Of a stretch of 64,000 nt of DNA, positions 40,332 through 43,102 are shown piece after piece. The position numbers and the translations under genes were made by a program. How positions within the stretch are numbered: the first letter of the stretch is position 1; every line of letters begins with the position of its first letter. Source of the DNA: Oceanipulchritudo coccoides (GTDB lineage Bacteria > Verrucomicrobiota > Verrucomicrobiia > Opitutales > Oceanipulchritudinaceae); the NCBI RefSeq assembly GCF_010500615.1, contig NZ_JAAGNX010000002.1, positions 486,990-550,989 of the forward strand, written 5' to 3'. The notes beneath the pieces were generated by a model. That model made no database searches, was not told where the DNA came from, and saw only the letters and a program-made list of their open reading frames with translations.

Positions 40332-41654
40332 TCAGCTTTTGGGCTGCGGGAGATAAATGTGGAAAGTTGATCCCTCTCCGGGGGTTGATTCCAAATCAAT
40401 GAATCCGCCCGCCCGGGCAATGATCCCGTAGACTGAGGCAAGGCCCAGTCCGGTTCCTTCTTCCTTCGGCTTGGTCGTGAAAAATGGATCGAAAATCTGT
40501 TCCCGTATATCCTCGGGGATGCCGCATCCTGTATCGGAAATGGAAATACAGACAAAGCGCCCGGGTACCAGCTGTCGGTCCCCCACCGACACTTTCATTT
40601 TCAAATCATGCACGCTTTCCTGAAGCGTAATCCTGCCCTTTCCCTTGATCGCATCTCTCGCGTTGACGAGGATATTCAGGATGGCGCGATGAAACTGGGT
40701 CGGGTCAATCCTGATTTTCGTCGAGGTTGGCGAGTATTGAAAGTCGGCTTCAAGGCGATCAGGGAAGGTCTCCCGGACGATCTTTTCGATTTCCTTGAGA
40801 AGTGGATGGACCGCTATAATCTCGACTTCCCCGCCTTCCGTTTCCCGTGAAAATGTCAGTATTTCCTGGATGACAGAGCGGGCCCTGCCGGTGCTCGTCT
40901 CAATGATGTCAACATAGCGGTTGAGTGACTCGTCCTGCATTTTGCGTTTCAGGAGCTGTGTCGACATACCGATCGGGGCGAGGAGATTATTCAGGTCGTG
41001 GGCGATGTCCCCCGCCAGCTTTGCGATATCCTCGAAGCGTTGCGCCTTCAGCAGCATTGCCTCAAGCTTCTGCTTTCCCTCCGGAATCGGATTAATGGAT
41101 TCTTTCTTTGGTGAACCATTTTCCCACTCAAGGAGCATCTTCTTGTAATTGCTGCCCCAGCGATAGGCCCCTGTTTTCCCACTTGCCGGAAGGACCCTGT
41201 GACACGGGATGAGCCAGGCGATCGGGTTTGCCCCCACGGCTGTTCCCACGGCCCGTGCATGGTTGGCTGAGCCCAGTTCCGAGGCAATCTCCCCGTAGGT
41301 TCTTGTCGTGGAAAAAGGAATACAAATGAGGTGTTGCCAGACTTTCCTCTGGAAGGGGGTTCCGATAGGGCACAATTTAAGGGAGGCGTCTCCTTTGGCT
41401 GCCTCCGCCAGCAATTCCACCTTGACCGGACAGCGTTTGCCCTCCTTGAAGGGACCGCTCCAGTATTTTTTCAGGGCCTCGCGGTCCAAGGATCCAAAAG
41501 AGATCCAGACAATCGTTTCCTTTTGCAGACCGATCCACCCGGAAGCTGACTCATACTCGAACGGGTAGATGTTGAGCGGCTCACGAATTGAAATCCCGGC
41601 TTCCCTCGGATCAATGAGGCGGACCCTTTTGGAGTTTTCAGGAGGTGATGTCAT
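40332..41654 (-). CDS. Ada/Ogt-type alkyl-DNA methyltransferase fused to sensor histidine kinase
   Basis: A 440-residue soluble fusion. Residues about 25-180 form an O6-alkylguanine-DNA alkyltransferase: [24 protein letters not shown] and the acceptor Cys151 in [13 protein letters not shown], followed by GAYRWGS as in the Ada C-terminal domain. Residues about 192-440 form a histidine kinase: a helical linker, phosphoacceptor His219 in [15 protein letters not shown], the N-box around Asn331, ISDTGCGIP (372-380) and [14 protein letters not shown]. Both halves keep all key residues. Irreversible alkyl transfer to Cys151 could signal damage to the kinase, as Ada does for its regulator domain; this is inference. 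It overlaps yceH by 17 bases in a unit that begins with a response regulator. Confidence 0.93.
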
Positions 41655-42291
41655 CGATCAGTTTTTCGAGGTGGGCAACTTTGGACTGGAGGTTGGCAAG
41701 GGTCTCTTCGATGTTGTCCAAGCGGCTGCTGCCCGTCGGGACAGGGATGTTTGTCCTTTCAACTTTTTCTACGGGAGCCTCGAAATTCTCAAGCCCGGGA
41801 ACGAGCGTGTGGAGATAACGGATTTCCTTGCCCCCGGGAGTGCGTCCAACGGATTGCACGAGGGTGTGTGGTTCATCCTCACGGTTCTCCATTCGATGAA
41901 GCCAATCCGTTACTTGCGGCAGCTCCGCAAATGGGTAAATCCGCTCGGTCCGCTGGCGAAGCTGGCCGGGTGTTTGTGGACCGCGCAGAAGGAGCGCAGT
42001 CAAAAGGGCGTACTCCTCTTTCCGGAGTTCCCAAGTGACAGAGGCATTTTCCCGGAATTTAGCCGTGCGAGAACCAGCCATATCCACTCGCATGGCGAGA
42101 TGTTTTTCGCGGAGCGTCTCGATCGCTCCCGAGACTTCCTCCTCGTCGTAGTCCGTCACGGGATCGCGACTCGTTTTCTGGTTACAGGCACTGATGAGGG
42201 AATTCAACGTAAGCGGATAATATTCGGGCGTAGTCTTCGCCTTCTCCATGAGAGCCCCGAGAACCCTAGCTTCTATGGCGTTGAGTTCCAT
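41638..42291 (-). CDS. YceH family protein (DUF480/UPF0502)
   Basis: A 217-residue protein of the YceH family, made of two winged-helix domains: MELNAIEARVLGALMEKAKTTPEYYPLTLN-like opening with NQKTSRDP, and a second part with ELRKEEYALLTALLLRGPQTPGQLRQRTE. A short coiled coil (about 185-217, NIEETLANLQSKVAHLEKLI) ends the protein. The family is widespread but its function is not established; the fold suggests nucleic-acid binding. It lies between the response regulator (13-base gap) and the methyltransferase-kinase fusion (17-base overlap), so it is probably co-transcribed and translationally coupled. Confidence 0.92.
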   Translation of the reverse strand: MELNAIEARVLGALMEKAKTTPEYYPLTLNSLISACNQKTSRDPVTDYDEEEVSGAIETLREKHLAMRVDMAGSRTAKFRENASVTWELRKEEYALLTALLLRGPQTPGQLRQRTERIYPFAELPQVTDWLHRMENREDEPHTLVQSVGRTPGGKEIRYLHTLVPGLENFEAPVEKVERTNIPVPTGSSRLDNIEETLANLQSKVAHLEKLIDDITS

Positions 42292-42304
42292 CGCGTCCTG
42301 TTAA

Positions 42305-43042
42305 TCAGTTTTCTTCACCCTCGGTGTTGTAGATATATCCGACACCGTGAATGGTCTTGAAGGCATCCAGGTTCAGGCCGTGTTTCTGGTACAGCCCCCG
42401 CACCTTGACGATATACTGGTCAAGGCTGCGACTACGGACGTCGGCGTGGATTCCCCAGACCCCGTGAATCAGGGTGCGCCGGGTGATGACAGAATTCGCA
42501 TTGTCATTCAGGAAGGCGAGAATGCCCAACTCCTTGCGCCCGATCTTTTCAGACTTCTTGTCCGGAAACTCAATCTCCATACGTTCCGGATTGACCATGG
42601 CTCCCTGGAACTCGAAGGGTCCCTCCGAAACGCTGGCGTTTTTCGTCACGCGATTGTCGAGCGAGGTCTCCGCACGCCGCAAGACGGCGTGAATCCGGGC
42701 TACCAGCTCCGTGAAGCTGAACGGTTTTGTGATGTAGTCATCCCCGCCCATTTCAAGGCCCTTGACCCGGTCCGTCTCGTTGTTGTTCCCCGTCAGGAAA
42801 ATGATCGGCACGTCGATATTCTCAGCCTTCAGCTTTTCCACGAGATCAAAGCCCGATCCATCCGGCAGGTTGATGTCCAACAGCATCAGGTTGGCAAAAT
42901 TACTCTGCAGATAGCGGACGACATTCGCGGCCCGGTGATGCACCTGGGTGAGCATTCCCGAGGACTCAAGTTGATCGGAAATCAGGTGGGCGAGTTCCGG
43001 GTCGTCTTCGACGATGAGGATGAGTGGTTTTGGTTTAGCCAT
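42305..43042 (-). CDS. OmpR-family response regulator
   Basis: A 245-residue two-component regulator. The receiver domain (about 7-122) has the acidic pair EDD, phosphoacceptor Asp56 in LLDINLPDG, Thr84 in FLTGNN and Lys106 in DYITKPFS. A linker leads to a winged-helix DNA-binding domain (about 150-242) with SRSLDQYIVKVRGLYQKHG as recognition region and IHGVGYIY as wing. The nearest kinase is the methyltransferase-kinase fusion two genes downstream on the same strand, a likely cognate partner. A 16-base palindrome about 45 bases upstream may be its own binding site. Confidence 0.95.
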   Translation of the reverse strand: MAKPKPLILIVEDDPELAHLISDQLESSGMLTQVHHRAANVVRYLQSNFANLMLLDINLPDGSGFDLVEKLKAENIDVPIIFLTGNNNETDRVKGLEMGGDDYITKPFSFTELVARIHAVLRRAETSLDNRVTKNASVSEGPFEFQGAMVNPERMEIEFPDKKSEKIGRKELGILAFLNDNANSVITRRTLIHGVWGIHADVRSRSLDQYIVKVRGLYQKHGLNLDAFKTIHGVGYIYNTEGEEN

Positions 43043-43086: not shown

Positions 43087-43102
43087 TTTTACAAATGTAA
43101 AA
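43087..43102. promoter_or_regulatory. TTTTACA-AA-TGTAAAA palindrome, candidate operator
   Basis: A perfect inverted repeat of two seven-base arms and a two-base centre lies in the 124-base gap between the divergent response regulator gene and hisE, about 45 bases before the regulator start. Its place suits autoregulation by the OmpR-type protein, although those proteins often bind direct repeats; another dimeric regulator is possible. Confidence 0.45.

Follow-up and report, generated by a model that had tools for sequence, protein, structure and literature searches.

The Ogt-histidine kinase gene and its domains

The window, by which is meant the whole 64,000-nucleotide stretch of Oceanipulchritudo coccoides DNA that was analysed, carries on its minus strand a gene (40332..41654, ATG start) for a 440-amino-acid protein in which an Ogt domain is joined to a histidine kinase. 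This assignment is backed by the open reading frame, by Pfam and by an orthologue from the same genus (L120:2495-3817(-), 55% identity), and the whole assembly of the source genome (G000) gives the same reading, with no internal stops in the frame at G000:C2:527324-528643. The Ogt half comprises residues 1-180 (41115..41654, minus strand) and is delimited by PF01035, TIGR00589 and an AlphaFold model; DNA_binding_1 (PF01035) spans residues 100-179 and scores 100 bits against a cut-off of 27, and TIGR00589 scores 93.7 bits against a cut-off of 46.4. A linker recognised from the AlphaFold model (residues 182-191; 41082..41111, minus strand) precedes a long helix. The kinase half holds the HisKA dimerisation and phospho-acceptor domain (residues 212-274; 40833..41021, minus strand; 42.7 bits versus 26.9) and the HATPase_c domain (residues 317-438; 40341..40706, minus strand; 83.5 bits versus 26.4), both identified by Pfam. 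The original prediction of an Ogt domain, with Cys151 in the motif PCHRV, and a histidine kinase, with His219, in one 440-residue chain is borne out by the open reading frame and by Pfam alike. The Cys151 codon lies at 41202-41204 within the Ogt half and the His219 codon at 40998-41000 within HisKA, and both surrounding motifs (PCHRV and AHDLNN) are unchanged in the fusion encoded by a second genome of the genus, G139.

Beyond PF01035, HisKA and HATPase_c, Pfam at an E-value of 0.001 detected no further domain in the protein and no other sensor domain; a PAS match and a receiver domain are absent, as is, at the same E-value, a match to Methyltransf_1N, the N-terminal ribonuclease-like subdomain. 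There is no hydrophobic stretch that resembles a membrane helix, the top 19-residue Kyte-Doolittle mean being 1.35. As judged from sequence, the histidine kinase of the fusion is complete and soluble. The fusion is also the sole PF01035 match in the source genome, which is 99.4% complete.

Catalytic residues and predicted structure

Tyr120, Arg134, Asn143, Cys151, His152 and Glu178 are invariant across the fusions of the source genome and G139. We take Arg134, Asn143, His152 and Glu178 to be the counterparts of human R128, N137, H146 and E172, each lying six positions further on, by number and without letter-by-letter alignment; the catalytic roles of the Ogt tyrosine, arginine finger, asparagine, histidine and glutamate are in part likewise presumed. 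Tyr120 and Cys151 fall six positions past human Y114 and C145, again by number without such alignment, and these two residues of human AGT are named in the accessible part of a review (PMC10779285). In the kinase half, His219, Asn331 and the motifs DxGCGI, IFDPF and GTGLGL are common to three sequences of the genus (the two fusions and the kinase of a third genome, G178), and both halves of the fusion look active. Trp166 and Ala146 of the fusion align with pocket residues of E. coli Ada, namely W160 and the alanine that stands for human P140, to which the accessible text of the review ascribes the restriction of Ada to small alkyl groups (PMC10779285), and from this match the fusion Ogt is predicted to prefer methyl over bulky groups.

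In the AlphaFold model of the fusion (19-row alignment, mean confidence 84.3, pTM 0.53) the Ogt half is well modelled and includes a strand-rich N-terminal subdomain at residues 27-98. The model places its strands at 27-34, 37-44 and 47-53, with a confidence of 86-95 per ten-residue block over residues 21-100. Confidence falls below 50 in the linker at residues 182-189, after which a single long helix, residues 192-238, runs into the kinase; a pTM of only 0.53 is too low to place the two halves relative to each other. The Foldseek matches shown for the fusion are all kinases and bear on the kinase part alone, with the DHp and CA domains of CckA (5idj) as the best solved relative of the kinase core.

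The operon and its repeat within the genus

On the same strand lie the genes for YceH (DUF480/UPF0502, assigned by Pfam; 217 aa; 41638..42291, minus strand) and for an OmpR/PhoB-type response regulator (42305..43042, minus strand), which domain matches and a search of the order place in an order-wide orthologue group. The overlap of 17 bases between yceH and the fusion gene, claimed earlier, is found at 41638-41654. Regulator, yceH and fusion are predicted from gene order and overlaps to form an operon. Among 17 family genomes searched, G139 encodes an end-to-end fusion of 55% identity, with the gene order (regulator, yceH, fusion) and the 17-base overlap unchanged, and in both the window and G139 the operon is bordered by a convergent tatA and a divergent hisE-hisG. 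The concern attached to the original prediction, that relatives might hold no homologous fusion, is removed by G139, which also rules out an assembly error or frameshift as the cause of the fusion. G139 carries in addition a second Ogt gene (G139:C109:6964-7227(+), 309-aa frame), and the fusion is not the sole transferase of that genome.

A split arrangement is seen in G178 (same genus, 90% complete, 6% contamination), where the regulator, a 190-aa ogt and a 405-aa kinase gene stand in a row and yceH is found on another contig. The conservation of neighbours, a point raised with the original prediction, is partial: regulator, Ogt and kinase occur together in all three genus genomes with the locus, whereas yceH lies elsewhere in G178. 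In these three genomes the kinase and regulator genes are adjacent and run in one direction, with yceH or ogt between them. Neither fusion nor regulator was found in the assembly of G175 (same genus, 84% complete), which is uninformative on the fusion since the regulator is missing as well.

The ogt and kinase genes of G178 share one reading frame, for which the chance expectation is one frame in three, and are separated by a single TGA. The G178 ogt clusters with both fusion Ogt domains (support 98/90) in a tree of 37 rows in which its terminal branch is flagged as long, and the G178 kinase clusters with both fusion kinases (support 100) in a quick tree of 59 rows; the trees support the two genes as orthologues of the fusion halves. 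At its N-terminus the G178 kinase (L149:6698-7915(-)) has about 140 residues, with no Pfam match, that are missing from the fusions. The S-helix/DHp region is kept across fused and unfused kinases (56/79 and 49/79 identical), which suggests that fusion altered the input end, and the linker is short and variable, with 3/15 residues identical between the two fusions. Because the split orthologues of G178 lie directly behind the same regulator, the fusion probably arose from neighbouring genes inside a regulator-ogt-kinase operon. In the simplest history, the direction of which we infer, the stretch of about 140 residues and the stop would have been lost, leaving Ogt as a new N-terminal domain; the reverse, an older fusion later split into two genes, is possible. 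Since orthologous parts occur both split and fused within one genus, the stages before and after the making of a putative new sensor can be compared directly at the bench.

Distribution of the fusion

The fusion was seen in two genomes only, the source genome and G139. Outside the genus none was found among the matches listed from samples of 384 genomes of the class and 387 of the phylum, in searches that scored four candidates per genome at thresholds of 1e-58 and 1e-62 and in which G139 and G178 lay outside both samples. Among the matches listed, no further one spanned both halves, and none of three class or phylum matches that start early in the model (at positions 135, 160 and 167) contained an Ogt match. 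Within the order, Ogt matches occur in 121 of 177 genomes; outside the genus, no Ogt frame in 28 default loci, 19 long-frame regions and L084 also matched the kinase, the remaining Ogt matches of the order being judged from match tables alone. A search of the relatives' contigs, considered for the best 80 of 339 relatives, returned mostly matches to the kinase half; one locus, L114, aligned from fusion residue 32, yet an Ogt match is absent from its frames. No description of an alkyltransferase-histidine kinase protein was found in the open-access literature that was searched.

The response regulator and its possible partners

Of 223 genomes searched in the order, 116 have a match to the regulator at an E-value of up to 1e-60, and some of these are as small as 0.6 to 1.1 Mb. 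At each of 27 regulator loci taken from the 113 matches outside the genus, with flanks of up to 1.5 kb, kinase-, Ogt- and YceH-like open reading frames are absent at an E-value of 0.001, and many non-genus loci adjoin hisG or a 5'-3' exonuclease gene instead. From its order-wide presence without an adjacent kinase, the regulator is judged to be older than the fusion operon and normally an orphan. The original prediction had cast it as the target of this kinase, and against a dedicated pair stand these counts: it is found in more than half of the order genomes, the kinase stands beside it at 0 of the 27 outside loci, and the two are not co-inherited. Where the regulator occurs without this kinase, another input must act on it.

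A candidate for such an input emerged from a set of 11 small genomes, picked within the order for having the regulator: ten of them carry one or two HisKA kinases, and one (G043) carries none. A conserved orphan kinase is present in nine of the 11, and its best match in the source genome is L250:1210-2388(+), orthology being judged here by a one-way, non-reciprocal best match to 20 of the 24 HisKA loci that G000 has. This kinase has PAS, HisKA and HATPase_c domains (Pfam), adjoins coaBC (named from sequence) and has no regulator within the surrounding 4 kb of G000. It is, by co-occurrence only, a candidate rival partner of the regulator.

A palindrome upstream of the regulator

Between the regulator and hisE lies the palindrome TTTACAAATGTAAA (43088..43101), the sole exact copy of TTTACANNTGTAAA in the source genome; with one mismatch allowed, shuffling gives 0.06 expected copies in the window. 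TTTACANNTGTAAA precedes the regulator in nine of ten family loci, L154 having no exact copy, and in none of 20 regulator loci from other families. It occurs exactly once, before the regulator, in six of six family genomes, in all of which a reversed control pattern is absent; these six had been preselected because their regulator locus already showed TTTACANNTGTAAA, and what they add is the absence of a further exact copy. Since chance would seldom produce another copy in any case, the weight rests on the conserved place of the site. A wider regulon was not found, one-mismatch matches (exact site excluded) numbering 4, 3 and 2 in G000, G139 and G178 versus 4, 2 and 1 for the control. A role as a hisE or hisG element is ruled out by L155, L157 and L164, where the palindrome is present with neither gene in the flank. 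We take TACANNTGTA to resemble operators of the BlaI/CopY type. TTTACANNTGTAAA would be bound either by the regulator, as autoregulation, or by another protein, and it may control the operon of the fusion in this genus; if it is an operator, the site would set the Ogt-kinase dose there.

Proposed mechanism and alternative explanations

The best-supported reading of the locus, which we would place somewhat short of probable, is methylation-driven signalling by a genus-specific two-component sensor that has a suicidal O6-methylguanine-DNA methyltransferase as its input. The Ogt half would take O6-methyl groups from DNA onto Cys151, and the methylated or opened Ogt would shift the helix at residues 192-238 that leads into the DHp domain; kinase autophosphorylation would then change, and phosphate would pass to the OmpR-type regulator of the operon. 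The regulator might in turn act on the palindrome that precedes its operon and change Ogt-kinase levels; the result would be a loop like that of Ada in which a phosphorelay replaces direct binding to DNA. That the loop is complete in this way, from self-methylation that switches the kinase to a catalytic phosphorelay with feedback on the operon itself via the regulator and the once-per-genome palindrome, is doubtful.

The observed basis for methylation signalling consists of a single chain with both domains, the catalytic residues, the gene order and the split orthologues. It is favoured because the domains score above their cut-offs, the fusion and operon are repeated in a relative, the catalytic residues are kept and the split orthologues occupy the same place; because the fusion has no other sensor domain or membrane helix and is the only PF01035 protein of its genome; and because Ada_Zn is absent from the four genus genomes, joins of Ogt to regulatory modules are usual in the order and a palindrome precedes the operon. 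It also draws on the behaviour of AGT, the structure of which opens or loosens on alkylation, with the methylated Sulfolobus protein melting 20 degrees lower, according to the accessible part of the review (PMC10779285). Against it count the order-wide regulator without this kinase and the orphan kinase as a candidate input, the low-confidence linker and the pTM of 0.53, by which rigid coupling is not seen, the restriction of the fusion to two genomes, the background level of one-mismatch palindromes and the second Ogt gene of G139.

An unlikely alternative, still to be taken seriously, is that the fusion is passive: neighbours merged by loss of a stop and of the N-terminal region of the kinase, the Ogt part only repairs, the kinase is constitutive or nearly silent, and methylation carries no message. 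The genes of G178, which share a frame and are parted by a single TGA, fit such a merger, as does a linker that is short, variable and of low model confidence, but both active sites have been kept in two fusions now at 55% identity, and the fusions have neither the N-terminal stretch of about 140 residues seen in the G178 kinase nor another sensor domain. A different partnership is also conceivable, though improbable, in which the regulator answers to the conserved orphan PAS kinase L250:1210-2388(+) and the ogt-kinase gene only uses the regulator's promoter. Although the order-wide orphan state of the regulator, the presence of that kinase in 9/11 small regulator-bearing genomes and the absence of a regulator within its 4 kb in G000 speak for it, the kinase of the genus stays behind the regulator, fused and split alike, and two widespread genes that occur together give little evidence of partnership; orthology here comes from a non-reciprocal best match among 20/24 HisKA loci.

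About as improbable, finally, is a signal that consists in lesion occupancy and not in covalent methylation: the Ogt half would tether the kinase to damaged DNA, or dimerise it there, and the binding itself would switch the kinase. Alkyltransferase-like proteins are not known to carry the active-site cysteine, and the fusion differs from them in retaining Cys151 and the whole catalytic set. An intact DNA-binding half would nevertheless permit such a mode, and the alkyltransferase-like proteins offer a precedent, since once bound to a lesion they recruit nucleotide excision repair, and Atl1 closes on binding, as described in the accessible text of the review (PMC10779285). If the coupling by methylation is true, the fusion would be a two-component kinase that senses DNA lesions, its input domain being a suicidal repair enzyme. 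A one-shot, stoichiometric repair event would become a catalytic phosphorelay, with which the cell may report alkylation damage; a single methylated kinase could pass phosphate to many regulators, whereas the read-out of Ada is stoichiometric.

Comparison with known systems

The kinase part shares its DHp and CA domains with kinase cores of the CckA, ZraS and LvrB type and differs from them in having Ogt as its input domain, with neither a PAS match nor a receiver domain. Joins of AGT to another function are known from AGT-EndoV of Ferroplasma acidarmanus and AGT-2 of C. elegans, in which a nuclease or a histone-like domain, respectively, takes the place that the signalling kinase has in the fusion (PMC10779285); a kinase fusion is not among the AGT fusions named in the accessible part of that 2023 review. 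There is also a likeness to Ada of E. coli, in which an O6-methylguanine transferase domain and a regulatory output also share one chain, and whose pocket residues are matched by Trp166 and Ala146. The fusion, however, has neither Ada_Zn (PF02805) nor the AraC HTH, its output is a histidine kinase, and what switches Ada is, according to the accessible text of the review, a cysteine of the Zn domain (Cys38) rather than that of Ogt (PMC10779285). Ada_Zn is found in none of four genus genomes and in two of 17 family genomes.

Some longer Ogt proteins of the order resemble full Ada by sequence. An AraC-type HTH, with no Ada_Zn match, is present in all ten long Ogt proteins chosen from the 16 in the default loci that reach at least 274 aa (L012, L014, L016, L020, L021, L022, L025, L027, L028 and L038, the HTH match of L021 falling below the curated cut-off). 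These proteins are like the fusion in that Ogt is joined to a regulatory module without Ada_Zn; they differ in that their output is a DNA-binding HTH and their Ogt is C-terminal, whereas the fusion has a kinase output and an N-terminal Ogt. As HTH-Ogt proteins are common in the order, a regulatory Ogt is normal here, and the novelty is the histidine kinase as the output of a regulatory Ogt protein.
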